A stretch of DNA of 37,479 nt from a virus. The first letter of the stretch is position 1; the number at the start of each line of letters is the position of its first letter. Where the stretch lies: the IMG/VR virus record IMGVR_UViG_3300017598_000268, positions 1 through 37,479 of that record; one strand, 5' to 3'. Of the stretch, positions 1 through 36,470 are shown piece after piece. The translations under genes and the position numbers were made by a program. Below the pieces are notes generated by a model, which saw nothing but the letters and a program-made list of their open reading frames with translations, had not been told where the DNA came from and ran no database searches.

Positions 1-603
1 ACATTCACTGAGGATTCATTAGAAGCTCCGGTGATGCTCGCTCGATATGATATTGCTCGTCAATATGTATTGAGGCAGTTTCCGTGGGGCTTTGCTAACA
101 GGACAGAGCCTGCTGCTCTGGTCACTGTTGACCCACAAAAATATCTCTATGCTTATGCGTACCCTAACAACTGCCTGAAGCTGAAACACATCGTCCCTTA
201 TTATGTGCTTGGTACCGACCGAACTGTTTACTTGCGGTTTGGTTCATTAATACCAGAGCCACAACTGCGTGATACTGAGGAGTTAAATATTCCTTATGAG
301 ATAGCTAATGAGAATGGTGTTCAGGTGATACTCACTGATATGCCTGAAGCTTATCTTCAGTACACGATTGATGAGAAGGACACCAACTTATACAGCCCAG
401 ATTTTGTTGAGATGCTGTCTTGGTGGCTGGCTTCTCAAGTTGCTGTGCCGATTGCAGGTGCTGAGAAAGGTCGTGAGATGAGAAGAGATGCTCTGAGGAT
501 GTATGACCAGATCAGGAAAGAAACGCAGGTGGCAAATGCCAATGAGCGGTTCAGGCAGAAAGAGGATGAGTCTGAGTACACGCAACTAAGAGAACAGTAC
601 TAA
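1..603 (+). CDS. Tail tubular protein A / head-tail adaptor (T7 gp11-like), 5'-partial
   Basis: The frame is open to the left edge of the window (10 sense codons precede the GTG at 31 and the ATG at 34), so the true start is upstream and this is the C-terminal ~200 residues. The segments LARYDIARQYVLRQFPWGFA and YLYAYAYPNNCLKLKHIVP match the conserved core of T7 gp11-type tail tubular protein A: a helix ending in PW-FA, then a YAY-P-DCL-type strand. This protein forms the ring that joins the portal to the nozzle in podoviruses. The C-terminus is charged and helical, as in the family. The stop overlaps the next start by one base (TAATG), so translation of the nozzle protein is probably coupled. 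The family call rests on motif recall and gene order. Confidence 0.82.
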   Translation, partial: TFTEDSLEAPVMLARYDIARQYVLRQFPWGFANRTEPAALVTVDPQKYLYAYAYPNNCLKLKHIVPYYVLGTDRTVYLRFGSLIPEPQLRDTEELNIPYEIANENGVQVILTDMPEAYLQYTIDEKDTNLYSPDFVEMLSWWLASQVAVPIAGAEKGREMRRDALRMYDQIRKETQVANANERFRQKEDESEYTQLREQY

Positions 604-2906
604 TGGCAGAAACCATTCAGAGGAGTTTCACTGCAGGTGAGATATCTCCTGCACTTGGAGCCAGAGCTGACCTTAACAAGTATCAGACTGGGTTGGCAAA
701 CCTACTTAATGGCATGGTTCATCCAGAGGGTGGCGTGTCAAATCGTGCAGGCTTTTCATTTATTGGCTATACACCAAGCAATGCAGCAGCCTGTCGATTA
801 ATCCCATTTCAATTTAATACCGAGCAAACTTATACGCTGACATTCATCGATAGCAAAATGATGGTTATTAAGGACGGTGAGTTTGTTACCAACACCCCCG
901 TTGGAATTGAAGGAATATCTGCAGCAACCACTGCAGTTGTCACAATGACTGGGCATGGGTTCACTGATGGAATGGAAGTCTTCATTACAGGTGCATCTGC
1001 TCTTCTGGATAATCAACGGTTCATTGTCAAGAATCCAACAGCTAATACATTTGAAATCTACTGGTTGAGAGATAACACTCCAGTCAATAGCCTGCTCTAT
1101 TTTACGGTCGCATTGGGTGCTGGAGGCACTGCTGCGTCAATCTTTGAGATGTCGCACGGGTATGACTCTACAGAAATCACAGAGCTGCGCTTTGTGCAGT
1201 CTGCTGACATCATGACTATCGTTCATCCGAACCATGACCCTGCAGAGCTACAAAGAACTGACCACAATGCATGGACTCTGGTTGATGTTGATTACACAAC
1301 TGTATTATCAGCTCCATCAATATCAAGTATTGTCGATAGTGGAACAACAGAGACCACTCACCAGAAAGTTTACGAGTATGTGGTCACTGCTGTAGATGCT
1401 GATGGCAATGAGTCTCTCCCTTCAACTGCATCTGTGACAGCCTCAATAGTTGCTCTGGATGTCACCAGAAAGAATACAATTACAGTAGGAGCTGTGACAG
1501 GAGCTACAAGTTACAACTTCTATAAAGCTGAGTCAGAAGGGTCTGGGGTTTATGGCTACATTGGTTCAAGTGAAACAACTAATTTCAAGGACTACAACAT
1601 AGCTCCAAATGTTAGCGATAGTCCTCCAGTCGACAGGCTGCCGTTTGGTACTGTTGGCGATGCAAGCACCACAACCAAACCAAGTACCGTTGCTTATTAT
1701 CAGCAGCGAATATTGTTTGGTGGTACCGTGGGCAAGCCAGAAACAATTGATGTATCAAAGACCGCCAACTTCCATTCAATGAGAACGTCTATCCCTTCAA
1801 AGGATGATGACTCAATTAACTTTACTATTGCATCACAACAGGTGAATGAGGTCAGGCATATTCTGGCTGTTGGTTCACTGCTTGTTCTGACTAGTGGTGG
1901 TGAGTGGAAGATAACTGAGGGTGAGAATCAGGTGCTGACCCCATCAACAGTGTCAGCAAAGATACAATCTTACTATGGGGCTTCAAGAGTATCTCCAGTA
2001 ATTGTTGGTCACACTGCATTGTATGTGCAGGAGTCTGGCTCACGAATCCGTGACATTGGTTACACGTTCGAGAGCGACAGTTACACTGGGTCTGACCTAT
2101 CGGTTATGGCTCAACATCTATTTAGAAACCACACAATCACTGATATGACATTTGCTCAGGAGCCACATCGAATGGTCTGGGCTACCAGAGATGACGGTGT
2201 GCTGCTTGGACTCACTTATCACAAAGAGCATAAGGTCACTGGCTGGTCTCATCATGAAACCTCTGGAGATTTCGGATCATTGAGTGTGGTCAAGGAAGGG
2301 CAGGAAGATATTCTGTATGTCACTGTTCAGCGAGTAATCAATGGAAATACTGTCAACACCATCGAGAGACTTCATGAAAGAAACTGGGACTTGGCAGTTG
2401 ATGCCTTCTGTGTAGATTGTGGACTAACTTATGACAGTGCTGAGACAGCAACTATCATAGGATTGCACCACCTCGCAGGACAGGAGGTTATTTGCCTTGC
2501 TGATGGCAATGTTATCACTGGGCTTATTGTTGAGGATAGAGGAGCTTTGGTGCTGCCTAATCCTGCAAGCAAAGTTCACATTGGTCTTCCGTATGTTTCA
2601 GAGATAAAGACACTGAATATTGATTCATCACAGCGTATGGTAAAAGGTAAAGCCAAGTCTATTGGTGAGGCAGTGATACAGTTTTATAATTCAAGGGGTG
2701 GGTGGACAGGATCAGAGTCTGAGTTCATGCAAGAGATTAAGCCACGGTTCCAGAGTGACAACTATGATGAGATGGAGCTGCAGTCATATGAAGAGCGAGT
2801 AGCTATCGATTCAGGCTGGACTCAGGGTGGTCAGATAATTTACAGGCAGCTCGACCCATTACCATTTACTATATTAGCGATTTCACCCGATGTCGAAGTC
2901 GGTTAG
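603..2906 (+). CDS. Tail tubular protein B / tail nozzle (T7 gp12-like)
   Basis: 767 residues, close to T7 gp12 in length and position. The N-terminus (SFTAGEISPALGARADLNKYQTG then GGVSNRAGFSFIG, residues ~8-52) is the signature of podoviral nozzle proteins. Residues ~104-155 (MTGHGFTDGMEVFITGA) look like the FCCH-type beta module often found in these proteins. Residues ~230-345 look like a fibronectin-III-like insertion (VYEYVVTAVDADGNESLPS). The protein should form the hexameric distal tail tube through which DNA leaves. The start is ATG in a TAATG overlap with the adaptor gene, and the end overlaps the gp13-like gene by 17 bases. Nothing suggests truncation. Confidence 0.85.
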   Translation: MAETIQRSFTAGEISPALGARADLNKYQTGLANLLNGMVHPEGGVSNRAGFSFIGYTPSNAAACRLIPFQFNTEQTYTLTFIDSKMMVIKDGEFVTNTPVGIEGISAATTAVVTMTGHGFTDGMEVFITGASALLDNQRFIVKNPTANTFEIYWLRDNTPVNSLLYFTVALGAGGTAASIFEMSHGYDSTEITELRFVQSADIMTIVHPNHDPAELQRTDHNAWTLVDVDYTTVLSAPSISSIVDSGTTETTHQKVYEYVVTAVDADGNESLPSTASVTASIVALDVTRKNTITVGAVTGATSYNFYKAESEGSGVYGYIGSSETTNFKDYNIAPNVSDSPPVDRLPFGTVGDASTTTKPSTVAYYQQRILFGGTVGKPETIDVSKTANFHSMRTSIPSKDDDSINFTIASQQVNEVRHILAVGSLLVLTSGGEWKITEGENQVLTPSTVSAKIQSYYGASRVSPVIVGHTALYVQESGSRIRDIGYTFESDSYTGSDLSVMAQHLFRNHTITDMTFAQEPHRMVWATRDDGVLLGLTYHKEHKVTGWSHHETSGDFGSLSVVKEGQEDILYVTVQRVINGNTVNTIERLHERNWDLAVDAFCVDCGLTYDSAETATIIGLHHLAGQEVICLADGNVITGLIVEDRGALVLPNPASKVHIGLPYVSEIKTLNIDSSQRMVKGKAKSIGEAVIQFYNSRGGWTGSESEFMQEIKPRFQSDNYDEMELQSYEERVAIDSGWTQGGQIIYRQLDPLPFTILAISPDVEVG

Positions 2907-3360
2907 CATTACGAAGGCATTGCCATCGCATATCGAACGCATTGCGAATGGAATGCGAACGCATGATGTGAAGGAGATTTGGTCTTCTCACAGGTCGCTA
3001 CCAGAGCAGGCACTGACAAAGGGACTGGCAAGAGGGAAGGCTTGGACAGCTTTATTAGATGGAGAGCCATTTGTTATGTTCGGTGTAACTGATGGTGATT
3101 TACTAACTGGTCTTGGTATTCCGTGGTTACTTGCCACTGATGAGCTGGATACAGTAAGCAGGGACTTTTTGAAGTATACTAAAGAGTATATGCCACAGGT
3201 CATTAATGGTTACAGCAGGCTACAGAATTATGTCCATGCTGAGAACACGCAGAGTATACTCTGGCTGAAGTGGATTGGATTTACATTAAGAGAGAAGTTG
3301 AGGTTTGGTTATGACAATGAATACTTCTACAGGTTTGAAATGAGGATAGATTATGTGTGA
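2890..3360 (+). CDS. Internal virion protein A-like (T7 gp13 family, DUF2833), GNAT-like fold
   Basis: 156 residues. The order directly after the nozzle gene and the pattern HIERIANGMRTHDVKEIW near the N-terminus, AWTALLDGEPFVMFGVT in the middle and a final WLKWIGF segment match the T7 gp13 / DUF2833 family, whose fold resembles GNAT acetyltransferases. In T7, gp13 is needed for assembly of infective particles and is scarcely retained in the virion. No intact acetyl-CoA signature is obvious, so enzyme activity is not claimed. The ATG at 2890 lies 17 bases before the gp12-like stop with no clear ribosome site, so coupling is likely. Codons ~7-24 carry an 11-bp DNA repeat array described separately. 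Confidence 0.75.
   Translation: MSKSVSITKALPSHIERIANGMRTHDVKEIWSSHRSLPEQALTKGLARGKAWTALLDGEPFVMFGVTDGDLLTGLGIPWLLATDELDTVSRDFLKYTKEYMPQVINGYSRLQNYVHAENTQSILWLKWIGFTLREKLRFGYDNEYFYRFEMRIDYV
2907..2961 (+). repeat. Five tandem 11-bp iteron-like units in the gp13-like gene
   Basis: Starting on the first base after the gp12-like stop codon, five consecutive 11-mers are CATTACGAAGG, CATTGCCATCG, CATATCGAACG, CATTGCGAATG and GAATGCGAACG. They match CAATGCGAACG at 8, 8, 8, 9 and 10 of 11 positions, with no gaps. That consensus is the one found on the minus strand at 36078-36132 and 36276-36319. Eleven is not a multiple of three, so the pattern cannot come from a repeated peptide. I infer a protein-binding array, but the function is unknown. 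Confidence 0.65.
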
Positions 3361-3862
3361 ACCAACTTCCATTATGATGGGCATGGGACTGGTAATGGGT
3401 GCTGTGGGTCAACACCAACAGGGCAAGGCTGCAAACGCTGCAGCCAAATCCAACGCCAAGATGATTGAGCTTCAGAATGAAGATACAAAAACCCAAGCTC
3501 TGGCTGAAGAGGATAAGATAAGAAGGCAGGGTGCAGCAACCAAGAGCCGACAGATTGTGCAGATAGCTGCCAATGGTGTTGAGGTTACAACTGGTAGTGC
3601 TGCCGAGTTAATTGCTGACACTGCAATGACCACCGAGCTTGATGCTATGACACTCAGAAATAATACTGAGCGAGCTATCTGGAGAGGCGAGTATCAGAAA
3701 GAATCTGTGCTTGCACAAGGAGCTAATGCTGAAGACCAAGCCAACATGGGTGCAGTAGGATCTCTTCTTGCAGGAGCAGGGAAGGTAGATAGTCAATGGA
3801 CAAAGTATAAGGCAGGGCAGTCAGCATTTAACAGTAAAGCCACAAACGCAAACCCAATGTAG
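3353..3862 (+). CDS. Internal virion protein B-like (T7 gp14-like)
   Basis: 169 residues with an N-terminal glycine/methionine-rich hydrophobic stretch (MMGMGLVMGAVGQHQQGKAA) followed by alanine-rich helix with many E, K and Q. The segment IAANGVEVTTGSAAELIADTA is typical of podoviral core proteins of the gp14 type. In T7, gp14 is ejected first and sits in the outer membrane as part of the DNA ejection channel. Size and position between gp13-like and gp15-like genes agree. The start overlaps the previous gene by 8 bases. Sequence identity across this family is low, so the assignment leans on order and composition. Confidence 0.65.
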   Translation: MCEPTSIMMGMGLVMGAVGQHQQGKAANAAAKSNAKMIELQNEDTKTQALAEEDKIRRQGAATKSRQIVQIAANGVEVTTGSAAELIADTAMTTELDAMTLRNNTERAIWRGEYQKESVLAQGANAEDQANMGAVGSLLAGAGKVDSQWTKYKAGQSAFNSKATNANPM

Positions 3863-3871
3863 GATAATAAA

Positions 3872-5848
3872 ATGCCGAGAGTCATACAAGCAGAACAGAG
3901 AGTTCAATCAAATGCACTGCAGGGTGTTATGCAGAAAGCTCCCAGCAATCAGGGTGCTATTGCATTAGGTCGTGGAGTAACTGAGTTCGGAAGTGACTTA
4001 GCTGATAAACAGAATTATGAGCGTACTCAAGTTAACAAAGCCAGAGTAAAAGATATTCAGGCTCAGTATCAAACCGAGCTACAGAAATCGCTTTATGGTG
4101 TTGATGGCTTTAAATCAAAACAAGGTCTTGATGCCAGCAGCCCAGAAGCACAGCAAGCTTATTTCGATAGCGTGAATGAGATTGGCGAATCATTCATGAG
4201 CCAGCTCGACAGTCAAGAACAGAAAGATATGTTTGCACCAATCATGCAGACACTTGGTGGTGGAGCAAGTAACAGAGCCATCTCTCATGCAGGTGAGCAG
4301 CGTGAAGCCTACAAAAAGGAAGCCAGTGAAGCTCTGGTAACCTCCTCAGCAGTTGGTATTCAGATGAACCCGAATGATGCAAGTGCTGTTGAGCTTAATC
4401 GTGGCATTGCTCATCGTGAGATCATTGAAACAATGACAGGCATGGGAGACCCTACAGAGAAAGGCTCCCCTGTTAATAACGCACTACTTGAGTTTGATAG
4501 CAAAGCATTCCTTGCTGCAGCTCAGAACCTTGTTGATAATGATCAGCCAGAAGCTGCTAAAGACCTAATCAATAACCAGAAAGGTGTTAATGGTGGCGAC
4601 ATCCTTAGTCCTGATGACCGAGAGTCATTTGATGACCTATTCGAGAAGAGTACATTCAAGCTGAAAGCCAAGAACATCATGGTTGAGATTTGGGATGAGG
4701 AAGGCTCCAGAGGTGATATGGAGGATCAGGTTGAGGAAATGGCAGGTGATGATGTTCTTCTTTATGAAGAAGCCATTCGTCAACTGGATAATCGATGGGA
4801 GCGAAAAGAAAAAGCTAAGGTAGAGACTCGCAGGGCATATGTTGAAGATAAGGCTGACCTCATTGAAAAGGGAGAGTGGCAAGTATCTGATATGACGGCT
4901 CAGGAGATTGATACACTTGACTCCAAAGATATTACCTACCTGAAGGCTTATGAGAAAGCCAACAATACACTGAAGCAGGAAGAGAGTGACCAAGATGCTC
5001 TCACTAGGTTTTGGAGCTTGGATGTCAAGGACATGGCAAAGGTTAACCTGAAATACTATGCAGACCGACTAACGCCTACTCATTATGAACAGGTTTTAAA
5101 GATTGTTCATTCTGCACGACAGGGCAAAGGGGTGAGTTCAGAGTCAGTGTCAACCCAGAACGACAACCAGAGATTGAAGACTGTCTTCGATGGCTTGAAG
5201 CTTGGCAAGACAAATAGCGACATAGAAACCAAGAAAAATATCAGAACTCGATATGAGGTTATTGCCGATTCATTTAAGAAGCGACATGGTTATGAGCCAG
5301 AGGGTCAGGAAGCTCAGAAGATACTGAACGAGATTGTCAAGGAGATATACCCAGTTAAGCATAATGACCCCATTGGCGAGTTCTTCAGGAAGAAGACCAA
5401 GCAGTTTGAGGTTGAGCTTAATCCAAATATAACCAGCAGCATGAGGTCTCAGATAATGGAGGCTGTTGAAGAGGATGGTGACATTCCAACTGTTCAAAAT
5501 GTAAATAAGAAGTATCAGGATTATCTTGATAGTAAGGGCGACACTCCTGCACAGTCTGCTGTAAGGCAAGCTAAGGATACGGTTACCAAGCTTGAAAATC
5601 AGGAGGGTGGCGACCTTCCGTCCGAAGAGATGGATGTTGCTGTGGCTGCACTCGAAGAGGCAGAGCAAGTCAAGAAGTTTCACAGTATGACTATGGAGCA
5701 GCTTACTGAGCTTGCTGCTATGAAAGCGACATCCAGAAAAGAGCGAGCTGCTATTAGAAAGTATATGCGAGGCATTGGTGATAACGAGATGTTTATGAGA
5801 GAAGCTATTGTCGATGATGACATAACGGAGTTTGATGACTATGCCTGA
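3872..5848 (+). CDS. Internal virion core protein (T7 gp15-like position)
   Basis: 658 residues, mainly helical and rich in E, K, Q and A, with no signal peptide or membrane segment. The N-terminus (RVIQAEQRVQSNALQGVMQKAP then LGRGVTEFGSDLADKQNYERTQV) is an amphipathic start followed by helical heptads. In T7 the periplasmic tunnel protein gp15 (~750 residues) occupies this place, and the length and composition fit. A ribosome site (TAGGA) lies 6 bases before the ATG. The 3' end overlaps the next gene by about 14 bases. I see no catalytic motif. The gp15 role is inferred from synteny rather than from a conserved motif. Confidence 0.55.
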   Translation: MPRVIQAEQRVQSNALQGVMQKAPSNQGAIALGRGVTEFGSDLADKQNYERTQVNKARVKDIQAQYQTELQKSLYGVDGFKSKQGLDASSPEAQQAYFDSVNEIGESFMSQLDSQEQKDMFAPIMQTLGGGASNRAISHAGEQREAYKKEASEALVTSSAVGIQMNPNDASAVELNRGIAHREIIETMTGMGDPTEKGSPVNNALLEFDSKAFLAAAQNLVDNDQPEAAKDLINNQKGVNGGDILSPDDRESFDDLFEKSTFKLKAKNIMVEIWDEEGSRGDMEDQVEEMAGDDVLLYEEAIRQLDNRWERKEKAKVETRRAYVEDKADLIEKGEWQVSDMTAQEIDTLDSKDITYLKAYEKANNTLKQEESDQDALTRFWSLDVKDMAKVNLKYYADRLTPTHYEQVLKIVHSARQGKGVSSESVSTQNDNQRLKTVFDGLKLGKTNSDIETKKNIRTRYEVIADSFKKRHGYEPEGQEAQKILNEIVKEIYPVKHNDPIGEFFRKKTKQFEVELNPNITSSMRSQIMEAVEEDGDIPTVQNVNKKYQDYLDSKGDTPAQSAVRQAKDTVTKLENQEGGDLPSEEMDVAVAALEEAEQVKKFHSMTMEQLTELAAMKATSRKERAAIRKYMRGIGDNEMFMREAIVDDDITEFDDYA

Positions 5849-7847
5849 TATGCTTATTGAAGATGAAGAAGAGCGTGAAGTCTTTCAGGATGCCACACAG
5901 GTTGATGAGGATGATTTCGCTGCGAGCTTTGCTAACTTCCAGAATACTAAAAAGGAAGAGAGAGGCAACTCTGTCGAGTCGTCAATGTATCAAGCTACGC
6001 AGAAAGACCCAGATCAACACGCCAAAACTGTTAAGGCTGCTGAGAGGGCTGGCGTCCCAGTGCTTGCTGCTGAGACTGATCCACAAACAACAGAGCAGCA
6101 GGGCAAGCTAAATGAGCGTGACTGGAGAGAGATAGCTGATGAGCATTATGAAACAGCAAAGCTACTGGGAGACCCAGATAAAGCTGCTGTCATTCAGGAC
6201 GATATCGACACTTATCTTGACCTTGAAACTATCTGGACTGAGGGAACCGATAAACTAATTCGTGCGCCAGCGGCAGGAGCCATTCAAACAATTGGCAATA
6301 TGCCTACCGCTGCAGGCGAGCTTATTGATGAAGCAACATTATTATCAACCAAGCTGATCGATGCTGTGCTGCCAGAGTCGATGGATAAGTACATCTGGAA
6401 CCAAGAAGACACTCCTGACATTATTAAAGATATCACCGAACTCAATGACCGATACGGCATTGTTGGAACTCTGAAAGGCAGTGGAGCTGCCGTTAAGCAG
6501 TTTGCTGAAGTGGTAGATGTTCCGCAAGAACGTAAAGACTGGATGACAGATATCACTGGGGCAATGGGTCAGATAGCAGGCATGGTTCTTGTCTCTAATT
6601 ATGGTGGCGCAATTGCAGGCACAGCATCAATGATGTCTCAGGGCGTTGTGATGCAGAACGATGCTATTGAAGAGTCTGGCAACAAGCCACAATTCTTCGG
6701 TGTAGAGACAAAGTTGCCAAATTTACTATTGGGTGGTGCGATTACTGCAGCCACTGAGCGATGGGGTATCGATAAATTATTCAACAGGCTGCCAAAGGAG
6801 TATAAGAACAAGTTTGTTGGTCTTACTCTTGATGTATTCAAAGCTGGTGGACTTGAAGCAGTAGAGGAGTTTACAGAGGGAATTGCTCACTCAACACTGG
6901 AGTATTTCACCTTTAATGAGGATGTTGACTTTACTCAGGGCATAATTGAGGAGATGAGGGCTGCTGCAGGAGCCGCAGGAGCATTTAGACTATTACTCCA
7001 AGTGTTTACACCAAGACGAGCTAAACTTAACCTGAAGGACTACTCAGGCGAGCAGACAAGGCTTGATGAAATGCTGAAGACCTTAGAGGATTCAGTATCA
7101 AAAGACAGAGACCCTAATCAGGTTAGAGAACATATCCAGAATCTGATTGAGAAAACTGGCAGAGATGGAGAGGTATTTATTCCTGCTCAGGATACTGAGG
7201 GGATGTTCGATGACCTATCTCTTGACCAATCCATACCAGAGGTTCAGGCTGTGCTGGAACAAATACCAGAGGCTCTTCGGCTGGGTGGTGATATTGTCAT
7301 ACCCACTGAGGACTTCATGGCTCACTTCTCTGATACCGAAACCATTACCAAATTGCGTGACCACCTGAGACTATCGAGCGACACCTTTACAAGGTCTGAA
7401 GCCAATGAGCTTGATACCGAATACAAGGAGGAGGTTCTTGCTGCAATGGAGATAGCTCTTGAGTTCGAGAAGACCAAAGAGGAAGCCAAAGAGATTGGTG
7501 ATCTGGTTTATGCTGATTTAGTTAAAACAGGAAAGATGAACAGCAAAGAAGCCAGAATGAATGCTAAATTAATGCAAGCAAGGATTGTTACCAAATCTGA
7601 AGAGCTTGGTGTTACGCCTACAGAACTATGGTCTCGACTTGGAGTGGAGGTTACTACTGGTGAAGTGTTCACTGGCACAGGAGTTTCTATGCAACAAGAC
7701 TTCGGAGATGTTAGAATTAAGGATGAGAAGATCCTGTCCAGCACAGGAAAGAAGCAAAGTATCGATGCACCTGCACAGAAAGTTTGGGAAACCAACGTAA
7801 AACGCAGGAATCAAGCTCAACGATTAAAGGACTGTATGAATGGCTGA
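5835..7847 (+). CDS. Probable internal virion protein, unassigned (670 aa)
   Basis: Starts are possible at TTG 5832, ATG 5835 or ATG 5841. A GGAG at 5827-5830 lies 4 bases before 5835 and 10 before 5841, so either ATG could be used. The first ~100 residues are acidic (EDEEEREVFQD) and probably disordered. Residues ~130-190 are helical. Residues ~235-275 form a Gly/Ala-rich hydrophobic stretch (GAMGQIAGMVLVSNYGGAIAG), followed by AGGLEAVEEFTEGIAHSTLEY at ~335-355. The rest is charged helix. Gly/Ala-rich segments of this kind recur in giant podoviral ejection proteins. With gp15-like upstream and a gp16-replacing giant downstream, an ejected core protein is the best guess. No enzyme motif was recognised. 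Confidence 0.5.
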   Translation: MTMPDMLIEDEEEREVFQDATQVDEDDFAASFANFQNTKKEERGNSVESSMYQATQKDPDQHAKTVKAAERAGVPVLAAETDPQTTEQQGKLNERDWREIADEHYETAKLLGDPDKAAVIQDDIDTYLDLETIWTEGTDKLIRAPAAGAIQTIGNMPTAAGELIDEATLLSTKLIDAVLPESMDKYIWNQEDTPDIIKDITELNDRYGIVGTLKGSGAAVKQFAEVVDVPQERKDWMTDITGAMGQIAGMVLVSNYGGAIAGTASMMSQGVVMQNDAIEESGNKPQFFGVETKLPNLLLGGAITAATERWGIDKLFNRLPKEYKNKFVGLTLDVFKAGGLEAVEEFTEGIAHSTLEYFTFNEDVDFTQGIIEEMRAAAGAAGAFRLLLQVFTPRRAKLNLKDYSGEQTRLDEMLKTLEDSVSKDRDPNQVREHIQNLIEKTGRDGEVFIPAQDTEGMFDDLSLDQSIPEVQAVLEQIPEALRLGGDIVIPTEDFMAHFSDTETITKLRDHLRLSSDTFTRSEANELDTEYKEEVLAAMEIALEFEKTKEEAKEIGDLVYADLVKTGKMNSKEARMNAKLMQARIVTKSEELGVTPTELWSRLGVEVTTGEVFTGTGVSMQQDFGDVRIKDEKILSSTGKKQSIDAPAQKVWETNVKRRNQAQRLKDCMNG

Positions 7848-8220
7848 TATCATCACACCAGAAGAGCTGGCTGAACTCGTTGAGAGTGGGGCTATCGTTA
7901 CTGAGCAGAAAGACCCAACCAAGATATCTGGCTGGGAATCACTCGTTGCACAACTCACTCGAATTGCTGAAGCCAATGAGCAACTCCTGAAGAAGCAGGA
8001 TGAACAAATTAAAGGTACGCTGGAAAAGATTGCAGATGTACTCAAGCGAAAGAACGTTGACACTACCCCATTAATTTCTTTATTGGGTGACATCAAAAAC
8101 AATACTGAGCAGCGACCAGACAATACAGACTTGAGGTTTGTAATGGTCAGAAAGAGCAGTGATAAGCTTCTCGACTATGTTGACGTTATTCGCAAACCAG
8201 AATCAAAGATTATCAATTAA
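7840..8220 (+). CDS. Small helical protein of unknown function
   Basis: 126 residues, starting at an ATG 8 bases after AAAGGA and overlapping the previous gene by 8 bases. The middle third (LTRIAEANEQLLKKQDEQIKGTLEKIADVLKRK, residues ~39-71) has clear heptads of a coiled coil. There is no signal peptide or membrane segment. Its place between a virion core protein and the accessory block suggests a virion or assembly role, for example a trimerising linker. I do not recognise a family. Confidence 0.6.
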   Translation: MADIITPEELAELVESGAIVTEQKDPTKISGWESLVAQLTRIAEANEQLLKKQDEQIKGTLEKIADVLKRKNVDTTPLISLLGDIKNNTEQRPDNTDLRFVMVRKSSDKLLDYVDVIRKPESKIIN

Positions 8221-8232
8221 GAGGAAGCTCAA

Positions 8233-8547
8233 ATGAGTGCAGAGGTACATAAGCAGCATCATGTAACACGATGGATAAGTAGTGGTACAGCTATAACTTT
8301 GCTTATTGCAAGCTGGAGCTTTGCTTCGGAGCTTGGAGAGATGAGAACACAGATTTCAAATCTAAGAGAAGAGCGAACTGAAATGGTGGACAAGGCTGTT
8401 GTTGAACAGATGTTGGCTGTAAGGGATGCTGAGATTAATAGTCTCCGTAGACAAGTGGAGAGATTAGATTCGAAACTGGACGAGAAGTTTGATAAGTACG
8501 ACCAGTACTTTCAACAAATTATGCTGAAGCTTGGCAACGGAGGATAA
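8233..8547 (+). CDS. Membrane-anchored coiled-coil protein (predicted)
   Basis: 104 residues preceded by GAGGAA 6 bases before the ATG. One hydrophobic segment at residues ~15-31 (ISSGTAITLLIASWSFA) is followed by a long heptad-rich coiled coil to the C-terminus (LGEMRTQISNLREERTEM and onward). The architecture, short N-tail then one membrane span then a periplasmic coiled coil, resembles an inner-membrane spanin (Rz-type) or a small virion anchor. The adjacent gene encodes a secreted protein, but it lacks a convincing lipobox, so a spanin pair is only a possibility. The gene lies among structural genes, away from the holin at 30804. Confidence 0.6.
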   Translation: MSAEVHKQHHVTRWISSGTAITLLIASWSFASELGEMRTQISNLREERTEMVDKAVVEQMLAVRDAEINSLRRQVERLDSKLDEKFDKYDQYFQQIMLKLGNGG

Positions 8548-14538: not shown

Positions 14539-14744
14539 TTAATTCGGGCTGGGCTAATGATTGTGGTAAGGAATTATTCACCATTGGCTGGGTGACTTGT
14601 GATATTGTCGAGCCAATAGAAAAAAAGAAAATAGGTGGTGGCACTAACTTTAGCTATGCGCCAAGTAGATTGAAGGAGCAGTTGCTCAGAGAAGATGAAG
14701 AAATACTTGCAGTAATAATGGCATTTATGAGGATAATAGATTGA
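14535..14744 (+). CDS. Small conserved-type protein following the fibre gene
   Basis: 69 residues starting at GTG 14535, which overlaps the previous stop (GTGA). The opening INSGWANDCGKELFTIGWVT resembles short proteins I recall after the same fibre-type protein in other phages, which supports the GTG start and the gene being real. The middle is basic, and the C-terminus is an amphipathic helix (LREDEEILAVIMAFMRIID). It overlaps the giant gene by 4 bases (TTGA). The function is unknown; an assembly partner of the preceding fibre protein is possible. Confidence 0.6.
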   Translation: MINSGWANDCGKELFTIGWVTCDIVEPIEKKKIGGGTNFSYAPSRLKEQLLREDEEILAVIMAFMRIID

Positions 14745-17700
14745 GCTTACAAGATTGTTTGAAAAAAGTAGCGATGAGCAGAACAGACAGAGAGAAACTA
14801 AACTCTATGGCTTCCAGTGCTGTTAAAGATGGGATGACTCCAGAGGATGCCGCTGCTGCAGAGAGTACTGTTATTAATCAATTTATGGAGAACGTTGACT
14901 CTGACCTTGACGCTATTGCAACTCAAGCTGAAGCTCAGGGCGTTACCGTTTCCAAGAGAGACGACAAGAAGATTGAGGACGGGCTAAAGCTCGAAGAACA
15001 AAAATTACTCAAAGAGCAGAATGCAAAGCTTGGATTATTCAGCCCAGTGGAGCGAGCTGTACTTACCATGAAACTGCCTGCGTGGGACTCTACGAAGAAG
15101 AACCCAGAGGGCAAGGCACTTGGGTCAAACATCTACGCAAACATCAGGAAGGCATCAGGAGTAAAGCAGGAGGAGCTACATTGGCTCGGTCTGCAGGAAA
15201 TACTTGAGGTCGACCCAAAAGCAAAGTACACCAGAGAAGAAACTGCCAGTATTATTCAAGCCATCGAGCTTAATGTTATTGAGACAGTAGCAGGCGATCC
15301 AAAACCTCAAGACATAGACATTACCGATGAGGTTGAAATATATCATAATGAACCTTTTCAGTACGACATAGAGATGGTTGAAGAGGCTCTTATTGACCAT
15401 GCTGTAAATGGATTGAAGCAGCAGTTCAGGGGGGGTGACTTAATAATTGCTCAAGAACATTTGCCATTTGGTATTTCCATTGATATGGGTACTGAGTATA
15501 GTAAGTGGGTGATAGCCAATGTCGATAAGGTTTTTGAGGTGTTTAAAAACAAAGATAATAAGCTCCTTACTGATGAGGAGATATTTCAGCTTGAGAAATA
15601 CTTTGCAGAAACAGACAGTAACACCAGAAAGAAAGTTGCACTTGAACAGTCGGTTCGCTTATCTGAACTAAACCCATTAGGTTGGGAATTTTACAATAAC
15701 GGGCAGGTTCAAGCTTTAGCGATAGACCATCTTAGTAACTTTATTGGCTCTGCTGTCAGAGGTGGAATGGAGATATACAGGGACAGGGATAACGACACGC
15801 ACACTCTTGAGGTTATCAGGCGAAATCAAGGGGAATCAAACTCATTTTTACTTGGTAACGATGAGTCAGGCTACGGTCACTTTTTTGGCTCTGCCGCAGG
15901 CGTTCATGGCTTTATGATTGAGAGTGGAGATACTCTCTCGCATAACGAGGGATTCGTCAGGCTTGAAGACGCTGGTCGTGACGAAGATGCCAGAGAGGCT
16001 GGCTACTTAAATCATCAGGATGCGATTGAGTCCCAGATGGACGGTGAGTTTGAACATAGCGTATCAACCCCAGTTGAAGAGAGAGCAAAATGGGGTAGCA
16101 GCAACTACAACGTTAACCACCCTGATTTGAATTATAATGAAGACACAAATTACCGTGAAATAAAAATCAAAATGCCAGACCTGACCACAAGCGCAGGAGA
16201 GCGGTTTACAAACACGGTTCACTTTGATGACGAGAACATCATCACCTTCCTGCGAACAAACGACCGAACTGACATGGGCGGTCTCAGTGGTGTGTCGCTA
16301 CACATTGAAGAGCAGCAATCAGACCTTCATCAGAAGGGCAGGCAGGTCGGTTATTCAGAGCGCAGTCTTACTGACTTGGCTGAAGCCAAATCTCAAATCT
16401 CATCTGAGATGGATAGCTTGAGCAGAACTCTATTTGAGACACAAGAGGTTACAGATAAGGATGGTGAGAAATACATTCTTACTGAAAGGTTCGATGAAGG
16501 TATTATAGAGGAATCATTCCTCTCTGCCATGAATACCTATGTTGAGATGTACAGCAAGCATCAGGATAAAGGCGATCTGGATGCATGGCTAATAAGGTCT
16601 TCAGCATTTCATCAAGTCTTGTCTGATCGCCACAAAAAGAGTAATGGAAAAAGCTTCACGGTGTTTGCTGAATTATTCGCAAGCAACCCGAAGATAGCCG
16701 AGCAATTGATAGACCTTCATAATCAGAGAGCGATTATTGAGGCTCAACAGAAGAAAGAGATTAAAGCTGTACCAGATGCCCCATTTAAAAAGACTGAGGC
16801 ATGGATTGATTTAGGGTTAAAGCGAGCGTTGCTGACGGCAATTGCTGAAGGTAAAGACCATCTCACTTGGAACAATGCAGCATCAGTGGCAAGTACTTGG
16901 AGCAAGGAATACCTTGAGATGTACTCTAACCAGTACAACAAATTAATGCCTGCACGAATCAAGAAGATAACAGGTATCACTCCGACAAATATTGCATTTG
17001 ATGGTGACCCTGCACACACCTACAGTAAGCCAAGTTTTGAGGATTCAATTATTATTGAGAATGACTACTGGGCTGGTAATCAGGGACAATATGTCATTAG
17101 CATAAAGCGACATGGGTTAGGGGCGTATGGGTACGAAAAGATTCAAGGAACAGATACTTATGCCACCAGAGTGAAGTTCGACACCAGAGAAGAAGCTGAG
17201 GCAGTGGGTCGGAAGTTGTACGAACGAATTCCTGCAGAGACTGACGCTGGCTTCTGGCACATTCCAATAACAGAAGAGCTTCGTAACAAAGTCATGAATC
17301 AGGGTCTCAGCTTATTTCAGCCTGACAAGGATATGGGTAAGAGCCTGACAAAGAAGGATGAGCGTGATGCCAAGTTGGTCTTGCTGCCAAACACTCTGAC
17401 CGATAACTACCATGATAATTACGACAGGATTGTCGCTGAAGCAGCGATTGTTAACCCAGATGATTTTATTGGCGCAACTTTCGCTCCAACGCTGGCTGAT
17501 TTAACTGGTGGCGGATTCCTGTTCACTGGTATTGACTCCAGTCAGGTGGACTACCCAACAGAAATGCAGGGCGGTCAGTCATTCCCAATGCTGGAATCTT
17601 ACCATAATGGCAAGATTGTCTGGGCTGTTAATGACGTTGGTGGAGTAACCAAACTACAAAAGTCTGATTATATTATTGTCTCTGCAATGGCAGCAGACAC

Positions 17701-20700
17701 TCATCGGTCGAACGCATCCGTTATGGAGGCTTTATTCTCGACACTGGAAGCCTACATCAGAGATGGTCGAATTGATAAGGATGGTCAGAAAGAATTAACC
17801 CAACTTATCAAGCATGGCAATAAAGCCAAAGCAACCATGAAGGAGCTTGGATACAAGCTGTCATGGAAGAGCGACAAAACTATTCAGAAGTTCTTGGAGG
17901 ATATTCCACCAAAGAAAGTTCCAGTGGCAGTCAGAAAGACCATTGATGAGAGCGCATGGATAGGTTACGAGACATCTGGCAAAAAACATAAGCCATTATC
18001 AGCCGAAGATAAAGCGACTCTTACAGAGGCTCTCAGGGACTTTATGTCAGACAAGACATTTGAACAATTTCCCAGCTTCAACAACAGGAGTGAGCTACAC
18101 AAATGGATTAGTAGTCTAACATTTCATAATAGAAAGGTACTTGCTGATACTCTGGCAACCAAAACAGCTCAGAATCTCGGCTCACCAAATGTTAACAAGG
18201 TGCTGAGAGAAACTATTGATAAGTCGGTGGCAGGTTATGCCTATGGCGATGCAATGCTGATCATCAAGGTTGATAAGGGCAAAGATGCACAGGTCGAACT
18301 TGGCGATAAGACTGGTACCAAAAAGCACAGGTCGTACAAGTACGGAGTCACTGGGAGTGTTGTTGGCAAATTTCATAAGCCTGTTGGCATGGAGACTATG
18401 TTCCCAGACTGGGCAAAGTCTCGCAGGGATAAGAACGCATCAATCCCACATGGTAAGCGTAGCTTTATGTTGGCACTGCCAGAGCAGAAGATGACTAAAG
18501 AGATGGCTGATACCATCAACTCTCTCGAATATAACGCCATACAGACACCGAAGCAGGCTCGACTTGCACAGGACTTTAAGCGTAGCAATTGGCGTTCATC
18601 ATTATTGACAAAGGATGCCCAGAAAAAAGAAACAGGCAAGGAAGGGTTTAGTGCTGCTGATTTTATTCATGCACTCAAATCTTCACCGTCCTCTTCAACA
18701 CTGACTATCCCAAACTCAAAGTTAATCAACAGAGAGATTAATGCAGCCAGAAAGGGCGTGGTTCCAGACTACAAAGAAGATAAAGACGGGAACGTTGTTA
18801 ACACAGGGTTAAGCACTCGCATATTCAACCTCGGTCAATCAGAAGTTTACTTTGCTCTTAGTAGTGGGTATAATTATAATCGAGAGTATGGCATTGATTT
18901 GGAGGCAGCAGGTCTGTCCGAGAATGAAGTTGCCATCAACGGTGTCATCAACAATGAGCTTGGAGCCAAAGGTATAGCGGCTCCTGCTGTCATGTTGAAA
19001 GCCATTGAAGAGGGAGCCACCGTACTCGATGCATATGCAGTGAAGAGCAAGGATTATAAAGATGGATTCCTGCCTTCTCTCTATGCAGAATACGGGTTTG
19101 AAGTCGCTGCTACTGTACCGTTTGACCCAGAGTATCATAAGGATGTTAATGAACTTAACGACCTGAAGAGAACATGGGCTGCAGACGGGTGGAAGGAGTC
19201 AGATGGATTTCCCGACATAGTTATAATGAAATGGAGTGGGACTAATGAGCAAAGAAAAGGGCTACAAAAAAGGTGGCTACAATCCGTTAAAGATGGCACT
19301 GACTTCTCAACAACTGAGAGTATTGAGTCAGAAGCAAGAGAACTTGCTGATGAATGGAATAGCGAGACTGATCCAGAAGCACGGGTCAGAGAACGTAACG
19401 CCAGACATGATAAAGGGTCAGTACAAACTGGTAGTAGAATACCATCTTCCGACAGACTTAGAGCAATACTTGGCGAGTTAGATAGTCTAACTCCTGCTGA
19501 GAGAATTAATCTTAATCTCGAAGAGGGCAACCTCTTCTATCAGCCCAACGAACAGGACAAGAATAATGCCAGAGGTAATATTCTTTTTAAGGATGATAAA
19601 GCTATCATCACCCTGTTCGAGAAGGCTGACCTATCAACCTTCCTGCATGAATCTGGACACCTGTTTTTGGAAATGGAGAGACAGCTCTCTGACCCAGAAA
19701 ACCTAACAGAAGACCAGCAGAAAATACTACAGTGGCTTGGTGTTAATTCATTTGATGAAATTGGCGTTGAGCATCACGAGATGTGGGCAAGAGGTTTCGA
19801 GAAATACCTTTATGAAGGTAAGGCTCCGTCAGAAAATCTACGTTCTGCATTCAGTGCATTTTCAAACTGGCTGACTCAGGTTTACAAGGGCGTGGTCTCA
19901 AAACTTAATGTCCAGCTCAACGATGACATCCGTGGTGTTATGGACAGAATGCTTGCCAGTAAAGAGGAAATTGCAGAAGCAAGAAGCAGTAAGGATTATC
20001 GCAACCTATTCCTGAATGTGAAGACTGCTGGTCGAGAAGCTACCGCTGATGATCAGGCGACAGTACTTACCGAGAAGGAGATGGAGACCTATCAGAAGAA
20101 GGTTAGGCAGGATGCCGAGAAAGCTGATGAGACACTCCGCACGAAACTATTTAATGAATTAAAGCGAACCAAAACAAAACTCTGGAAGAGTGAAACTGCC
20201 CAGCTCAAAAAAGAAATTAAAGCCGAGCTGATTGAGAATGATCCAGTCTACTCATCCAGAGACAAGATGCGTAAGCCAATTGTTGATGACAATCCAGACA
20301 CCAAGATGAACTCTGCTGCTGTCAGGGATTTCTTTGATGGCAAGATACCAATTGAATACGCAAAGATGGTTCACGAAGACAGCACAATGAATATCGATGA
20401 AATGGCAGAGCGTCATGGATTCGCTGATGGTGCCACTATGTTTGCAGACCTCTCTGAAGCTCCTCCACTTAATGACCGTGTGAAGGAAATGGCTGAAGAT
20501 GAGATGCATAAACGTCATGGCGATATGCTGAATGACGGCACCCTTCAACAAGAAGCTGAAGCTGCAGCCCACCATGAAGGTCGAGCTGAATTTCTTCTTT
20601 ACGAACTTCGTTTATTGAATAGGCAATTGAAGAGAAAGCCTGCTATTGATAAGCGACAGCTCAAGGAGGAAGCTAGACTGTTTGTTGAGAGAACTCCATA

Positions 20701-32150: not shown

Positions 32151-32165
32151 ATAAATAACATTTCA

Positions 32166-32206
32166 GTCAAACAATGCTTGACTCCATAATAGGGGTCAGG
32201 CATAAT
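32166..32206 (+). promoter_or_regulatory. Promoter-operator unit 2
   Basis: The palindrome GTCAAACAATGCTTGAC (32166-32182) overlaps -35 TTGACT (32178-32183). The -10 CATAAT (32201-32206) follows an ideal 17-base spacer. The leader TTCACAGTACATTAGGAATT (32216-32235) is shared with the other units and carries the ribosome site of the gene at 32241. Confidence 0.82.
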
Positions 32207-32240
32207 TGGGATTCATTCACAGTACATTAGGAATTACATC

Positions 32241-33174: not shown

Positions 33175-33381
33175 ATGAGTCGATATAGAATAATGGTTGA
33201 AGGTGAGGACGGTCTCACCTTCTGCACGGAGGATGACTTATCATCCGATGAGATTCGTGAATCTTATGAGGAAGCTAACAAGAATTATCCAGAAGCCAGA
33301 GCCATCTGGTCTGAGACCATGAGGGATAGCTTTAGTATCCTTCAGGCTCGGTACGATAATGATGAGCAAGACCTGTATTAG
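33175..33381 (+). CDS. Small acidic early protein
   Basis: 68 residues, ATG one base after the previous TAG. Sequence SRYRIMVEGEDGLTFCTEDDLSS and then helix SYEEANKNYPEARAIWSETMRDSF. Strongly acidic, one short beta-strand pair then helix, as in small host-takeover proteins or DNA mimics in general, but no family is recognised. Its TAG stop supplies the first G of the operator in unit 3. Confidence 0.55.
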   Translation: MSRYRIMVEGEDGLTFCTEDDLSSDEIRESYEEANKNYPEARAIWSETMRDSFSILQARYDNDEQDLY

Positions 33382-33421
33382 TCAATCAATGCTTGACCTT
33401 ATCATTTAGGTCAGGCATAAT
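33381..33421 (+). promoter_or_regulatory. Promoter-operator unit 3
   Basis: The palindrome GTCAATCAATGCTTGAC (33381-33397) overlaps -35 TTGACC (33393-33398). The -10 CATAAT (33416-33421) follows a 17-base spacer. The leader CACACAGTAAATTAGGAATT (33431-33450) precedes the ATG at 33457. The layout is base-for-base parallel to unit 2. Confidence 0.82.
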
Positions 33422-33456
33422 TAGCACTCACACACAGTAAATTAGGAATTAATAAA

Positions 33457-35645: not shown

Positions 35646-36458
35646 TCACTCCTTAAATTTAGCCATTGATTTTTTAAACTCTTCTCTCGAATACTCTGCC
35701 TCAGACTTATAACCAAGCTTCCTCCAGACATCCTCCTCACTTTTTTTACGTTGAGCCTCTGTTGGTGGTTGTGGAGTAGCTGCCTCTGGCTTCTTAAATC
35801 CACTCTTCTTGGGTGGTGATGTATCAACATCATCATCCCATCGTTCGCCATTCATGTAGGTTGTCGGCATTGGTACGAACCCTTCGAGCCATTGCCTGTC
35901 TTTATTTAACCTGTTTTTTACATCAGCAATAATCATCTTATGGTTGTTACCAAGATTCTTCCTGCCCCAAATCTCTTTGGCTTTTTTCTTACTACGTTTT
36001 ACTGGGTAGATAGACCAAAAATCATCAAAGTGTGCAAAGCGATTTGCACTAGTCTTTTTTATTGGTTCTTGGTTCTTGGTTAGCATACCGTTCGCATTGC
36101 GTTCGCTATGCGTTTTGGATGCGTTCGCATTGCTCCTCTGAGAACCCCACCGTACAAGGGCTGAAGCCTGTGCCTTTTTGGATTTTTCATGATATGCAGC
36201 GATTGTCTCGTTGCAGTGCTTGTTTTCCCACCCGTCTTTTGACTCAAAAAAGAAGTCACTTAGCACATTTCTGAAAGCTTGCATTTCGTTCGCACTGCGA
36301 ATGCAATGCGTTCGCATAACTTTATTCAAATCTTTGTTCAGTGGCTTCTCCTCCAAATACACTGTATCCAAGAGCATACGGTAGATTCCGTGTTCCAATG
36401 GACTAAGGTGTGCGGTGCGCCTTCGATAGTCCCCAATGTTAAAATTGTAAAAATGCAT
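35646..36458 (-). CDS. DUF1376 / DnaT-like replication protein
   Basis: The ATG at 36458 has AAGGAG at 36467-36472 (8-base gap) and is preferred over GTG 36461. 270 residues. N-terminal domain ~1-100: MHFYNFNIGDYRRRTAHLSPLEHGIYRMLLDTVYLEEKPL, the DUF1376 (YdaU-type) winged-helix signature. A low-complexity linker ~104-140 (SNANASKTHSERNANG) follows. C-terminal ~143-210: FDDFWSIYPVKRSKKKAKEIW, then TTYMNGERWDDD, a DnaT/lambda-O-like helicase-loader region. These proteins stand in for lambda O: they bind the origin and recruit host DnaB. Two 11-bp iteron blocks lie inside this gene, at codons ~47-61 and ~109-127, which suggests an internal origin. First large gene of the leftward operon behind the Cro-like repressor. 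Confidence 0.8.
   Translation of the reverse strand: MHFYNFNIGDYRRRTAHLSPLEHGIYRMLLDTVYLEEKPLNKDLNKVMRTHCIRSANEMQAFRNVLSDFFFESKDGWENKHCNETIAAYHEKSKKAQASALVRWGSQRSNANASKTHSERNANGMLTKNQEPIKKTSANRFAHFDDFWSIYPVKRSKKKAKEIWGRKNLGNNHKMIIADVKNRLNKDRQWLEGFVPMPTTYMNGERWDDDVDTSPPKKSGFKKPEAATPQPPTEAQRKKSEEDVWRKLGYKSEAEYSREEFKKSMAKFKE
36078..36132 (-). repeat. Iteron block A, five 11-bp units in the replication gene linker (candidate origin)
   Basis: Read on the plus strand: GGTTAGCATAC, CGTTCGCATTG, CGTTCGCTATG, CGTTTTGGATG and CGTTCGCATTG, consecutive and without gaps (starts 36078, 36089, 36100, 36111, 36122). The second and fifth are identical. It lies in the linker between the two domains of the replication protein, the place where lambda carries its ori iterons in gene O. 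An 11-bp period cannot arise from codon repeats. Confidence 0.75.
36276..36319 (-). repeat. Iteron block B, four 11-bp units in the replication gene N-terminal part
   Basis: Plus-strand units AGCTTGCATTT, CGTTCGCACTG, CGAATGCAATG and CGTTCGCATAA start at 36276, 36287, 36298 and 36309. Against CGTTCGCATTG they match 7, 10, 7 and 9 of 11. Same period and consensus as block A, 143 bases away. The two weaker units make its borders less certain. Confidence 0.6.
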
Positions 36459-36470
36459 CACTGTGTCTCC

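Follow-up and report, generated by a model that had tools for sequence, protein, structure and literature searches.

In phage lambda, each iteron is a 19-bp inverted repeat to which O binds as a dimer, and the phage is not known to have a second array in a virion gene. P1 incA and F incC are extra arrays of origin iterons which sit off the origin, lack an opening region and restrain initiation by pairing or sequestration, and such plasmid control arrays are non-coding and close to the rep gene. Iteron plasmids use handcuffing (PMC5395669), and in Vibrio cholerae the initiator RctB binds and is activated by crtS, a novel site (mentioned in PMC5395669). For lambda, plasmid inhibition of its (theta) replication depends on iterons lacking the AT-rich part and on transcribed oop as well (PMC3349717), and ectopic lambda origins arrest the phage (PMC4488673).

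Here we describe an array of iterons that lies inside a virion gene. The stretch of DNA analysed (the window) comprises the 37,479 bases of a linear virus record in IMG/VR. Podovirus genes similar to gp11, gp12, gp13 and gp14 lie in its left part. On the right are genes resembling RusA and NinB, a minus-strand DUF1376 replication gene, a small gene with a helix-turn-helix and a RecT gene cut off by the contig end (coordinates of the main features are in Table 1). The gp12-like open reading frame has its stop at 2906, so the first base after it, 2907, is also the first base of the array. The gp13 array recurs without change in a further, independent contig (L026) that aligns with window positions 1-8534 at 99.78% identity and reaches 5.3 kb further upstream.

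Table 1. Features of the window that bear on the two iteron loci.
Feature	Position	Strand	Remarks
gp13-like internal virion protein gene	2890..3360	+	phrog_308; GNAT fold predicted; array = codons 6-24
Remote array of five 11-bp iteron units, no gaps	2907..2961	+	consensus CAATGCGAACG
DUF1376 / phrog_9327 primosomal (replication initiation) protein	35646..36461	-	presumed iteron binder
T-poor repeat tract AACCAAGAACCAAGAACCAATAAAAA	36056..36083	-	directly after main cluster; candidate strand-opening element
Main iteron cluster	36078..36132	-	linker of replication gene
Second iteron cluster	36276..36319	-	DUF1376-coding part, ~200 bp upstream of main cluster

Other repeats are present in the window. 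A 72-nt direct repeat (81%) occurs at 32165-32236 and 33380-33451, upstream of two plus-strand genes, and has the appearance of a promoter or regulatory region that was duplicated. A 39-nt inverted repeat (7047-7085 and 16593-16631, 95% complementary) joins the gene at 5832-7847 with a 2,876-aa open frame in the tail/virion region (14741-23371, TTG start).

The five gp13 units, at 2907, 2918, 2929, 2940 and 2951, are CATTACGAAGG, CATTGCCATCG, CATATCGAACG, CATTGCGAATG and GAATGCGAACG, and they match the consensus CAATGCGAACG at 8, 8, 8, 9 and 10 of 11 positions, respectively. These scores confirm a preliminary description of the locus, which had reported five ungapped 11-mers with 8 to 10 matches following the gp12-like stop; it was also right that the array lies on the coding strand in both gp13 and the replication gene, and the peptides ANGM and MRTH are indeed common to both translations. 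Two of its points hold in part. The separation of 33 kb applies along the linear contig, but the opposite way round may be shorter, as the true ends are unknown, and the replication gene does contain the same consensus but in two clusters, not one array.

Summed over the five units, the gp13 array scores 43 of 55, the top plus-strand value in the window, where all other high 5 x 11 scores fall at the gp13 locus itself or in the replication gene. Random sequence does not produce arrays this good, which had been named as a possible objection: among 300 genomes of the window's length simulated with an order-3 Markov model, the genome-wide maximum averaged 28 and was at most 32. With a weight matrix made from 46 distinct arrays, all from phages other than the window's, the units score 9.6, 10.7, 8.2, 12.2 and 15.0 bits, and values of at least 8 bits occur at 0.07% of positions. 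With a matrix made from the window's own replication gene, the gp13 array scores 36.6 (best unrelated place, 4.7; reversed control, 12.7), which marks it as a further array, located outside the origin, of the same iterons that the origin has. An RNA hairpin at the start of gp13 was not supported (z = 0.17).

The replication gene has the layout of a lambda-type origin, i.e., tandem short repeats within an initiator gene. The structure prediction for the N-terminal domain of its DUF1376 protein has high confidence (block means mostly above 94), and a Foldseek search with the initiator model gave no significant match, only weak winged-helix resemblances. The tract beside the main cluster has a T-poor score of 0.82 (background 95th percentile, 0.56), consistent with an opening-type element adjacent to the array. 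As a separate observation, the upstream cluster rewrites the DUF1376 domain (MRTHCIRSANE), and the two-cluster layout occurs in more than one iteron class.

The same iteron is found in many other phages. The exact 23-mer GCAATGCGAACGCAATGCGAACG is present in 55 viral contigs, for which a rough chance expectation is far below one, and in only three species-level bacterial genome contigs. Nearly all matches are in frames of approximately 220-370 aa; when ten of these frames were compared with Pfam, seven matched DUF1376, one matched Lin1244_N and two matched nothing. Translated, the array gives a repeat of 11 residues (e.g., RTHSERNANAM), but the array-bearing records span a G+C content of 0.34-0.66, so it is the DNA, not the peptide alone, that looks conserved. 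A T-poor, short-period tract follows the main cluster in 36 of 47 arrays (median tract score, 0.88; background, 0.26%), and a second cluster 180-215 bp upstream is frequent in replication genes (L019, L142, L152, L207, L244-L245 and the window). Some arrays are free-standing, lying between genes or where there is no plausible replication frame (L165 5942-6095, L125 ~5040-5090 and L206 ~1919-1980). Other DUF1376 phages (L214, L215, L216, L022 and L024) have different 11-bp classes (GCACGAAGCGT, TCAACAGCCGT and GGAAACCGAAT) at the same linker position.

Judged from sequence, the iteron is a DNA element conserved across many unrelated phages, and its combination with the T-poor tract in a DUF1376/Lin1244 gene suggests an origin of lambda-O type that lies within the gene of the initiator. 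It differs from ori-lambda in the repeats, which are 11-bp direct repeats rather than 19-bp inverted-repeat iterons. The arrangement is alike: in ori-lambda, initiator-binding repeats inside the initiator gene are followed by a compositionally biased tract (PMC5043065), as the DUF1376 array is followed by the T-poor tract here. A literature search, in which few subscription journals were covered, returned nothing that links DUF1376 to replication origins or prints the iteron pair.

The gene that hosts the remote array is a T7-type gp13 by similarity (phrog_308, E = 1.7e-36) and by synteny (gp12 before it, gp14 after it), with the Pfam gp13 model scoring 22.8, under its cut-off of 25. A GNAT fold is predicted for the protein with high confidence, and the array encodes the first strand and helices. 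At this position the gp13 family has the motif I-A-x-x-M-R-x-x-D, with which the iteron-coded peptide, E-R-x-A-N-x-M-R-T-H, is compatible. The family does not account for the array, however: 400,000 sequences drawn from the family profile and given the window's codon usage reached an iteron score of 32 at best, 200,000 synonymous recodings of the window's own gp13 averaged 31.3 and reached 40 (vs the actual 43), and the 5' ends of real gp13 relatives other than the window's score at most 27.

Both the protein family and the iteron DNA are visible in the start of gp13, which is thus under dual constraint, because the iteron mismatches sit at residues the family needs and residues unseen in relatives follow the iteron. 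Mismatches occur at I7, H14, I15 and I18, where the iteron would code N, Q, C and N, and none of 75 relatives has those residues at those sites. Conversely, T24 and H25 follow the iteron exactly and are found in 0 of 75 relatives, which mostly have Q and A. At codon 20, which is AAT for AAC, a synonymous iteron mismatch has been left unrepaired.

So far, the gp13 array has been seen in a single lineage, represented by two contigs. Known gp13 relatives are either near-identical (99.78%) or share at most 47% protein identity, and the latter are without the array; searches for closer relatives, using the single protein and gp12, yielded just L026 and a single distant relative. A scan with the exact gp13 array segment and two scans with degenerate array patterns found, besides L026, only replication-gene arrays. 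Whether the pair (replication gene and gp13) occurs together in related phages had been put forward as a check; joint occurrence was rare, with gp13 in two of 50 array records (G041 and G049), neither of which has a second array.

More broadly, all 18 near-whole records with an array have it at one place, whereas the window has two. The isolated Acinetobacter phage phiAC-1 (JX560521.1, L223 2176) has a weaker second iteron site at 22075-22119, between convergent genes and approximately 19 kb from its replication gene, which scores 27.4 (vs a maximum of 15.3 in 150 Markov genomes) and, like the gp13 array, is without a T-poor tract. In Obolenskviruses, the locus homologous to this second site has degraded units and the replication gene has a different iteron class; no remote site was found in them with their own matrix, nor was there a clear remote array in four phages with other iteron classes. 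Remote arrays are therefore not general, and neither is any control role they may have.

The reading we favour, and hold tentatively, is that the DUF1376 initiator of the phage has a second, bare binding site at 2907-2961, which probably serves to limit initiation late. That a single factor recognises both loci had been proposed from the first; the wide spread of the element and the fit of all five gp13 units to the other-phage matrix support this, and we infer that the DUF1376 protein is the iteron binder at both and that the remote site has a control function. Within its own gene, the initiator would bind the 11-bp iterons, which would form an internal origin of lambda-O type. Gp13 may host the remote site in its first codons because the family motif happens to tolerate the iteron-coded peptide, and the gene would then be a settled compromise between protein sequence and DNA sequence. 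Initiator bound to the helically phased gp13 units would most likely pair with the origin array or draw initiator off it, and either effect would mean fewer initiations late in infection, as with ectopic or remote iterons of lambda and iteron plasmids.

Restraint by pairing or sequestration is preferred because the site is bare and has precedents in lambda and the iteron plasmids. T-poor scores beside the gp13 array are 0.39 on both sides, which is background level, so the array lacks an opening-type tract and has the make-up of remote control iterons, not that of a complete origin. It is like P1 incA and F incC in repeating the origin's iterons outside the origin, with no opening region beside them, but it lies kilobases away inside a conserved virion gene, and its control effect is our proposal. 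It likewise resembles the lambda inhibition phenotype, where the iterons act without the opening part, although those decoys were plasmid-borne experimental copies and this is an extra copy in the phage's own genome. With crtS it would share being a separate site for the initiator outside the origin, where in that case RctB activity is altered; crtS is a novel activating site, whereas the gp13 array repeats the origin's iterons. Counting against a control role, the need for copy control is less obvious in a lytic phage than in a plasmid. The restriction to one lineage, the 18 near-whole records with a single array, the Foldseek result for the initiator and the unrepaired mismatch at codon 20 also weigh against the favoured reading. 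We see as possible, with rather more doubt, a wider version in which the array hidden in the virion gene is a site for remote replication control or for a switch from replication to late phase, with the initiator coupling the origin to the structural operon and gp13 reshaped by DNA-level selection.

Among other explanations, the array could be a captured relic, i.e., a short iteron stretch of the replication gene that recombined into gp13 at the A-x-x-M-R codons and now has no function. The gp13 segment does resemble known arrays (48 of 64 bases overall at best, and 29 of 34 to L150 and L155), its motif is compatible with the iteron peptide and no other gp13 relative has the array. We nonetheless consider this unlikely: all five units are still strong even though the family-conserved residues are in place, which suggests that there has been time enough for decay, and A25, kept in 62 of 75 relatives, gave way to the iteron-coded H.

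Somewhat less probable is control of late transcription, with the initiator or another early protein delaying gp13 and downstream genes from the gp12/gp13 junction. The array's position, starting on the first base past the gp12 stop and within the structural operon, would suit this, and a phased multi-unit site could serve as a roadblock. However, a roadblock within a co-transcribed virion operon would be unusual, and the remote copy in phiAC-1, being between convergent genes, could not control a start.

A second or late origin at gp13 had been raised at the outset; multiple origins occur in some phages, and the iterons at gp13 are identical in kind to those of the presumed origin. This idea is weakened, and we give it a slim chance, since the tract that follows most replication-gene arrays, including the window's main cluster, flanks the gp13 array on neither side and no initiator gene adjoins it. 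An even smaller probability attaches to the array being the target of a host or satellite factor instead of the phage initiator: the consensus recurs with two initiator N-terminal families and in phages of distant hosts, as such a factor might predict, but the differing 11-bp classes of other DUF1376 phages are better suited to initiator-specific recognition. Finally, a chance array driven by gp13 protein constraints is ruled out by the Markov, family-profile, own-recoding and real-5'-end nulls, even though the family does encode its I-A-x-x-M-R-x-x-D motif at the array.

The census indicates a widespread and apparently undescribed candidate type of origin in DUF1376 or Lin1244 genes, made up of 11-bp iterons plus a T-poor tract; cultured phages, among them phiAC-1 and Vibrio phage 1.052.A, are open to tests of it. 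Control by iterons is well known from plasmid textbooks. If the initiator-site reading of the gp13 array is true, however, a control-like array within a conserved phage structural gene, where protein and DNA sequence visibly compromise, would give a clean example from nature of selection for coding and for binding sites in the same DNA.
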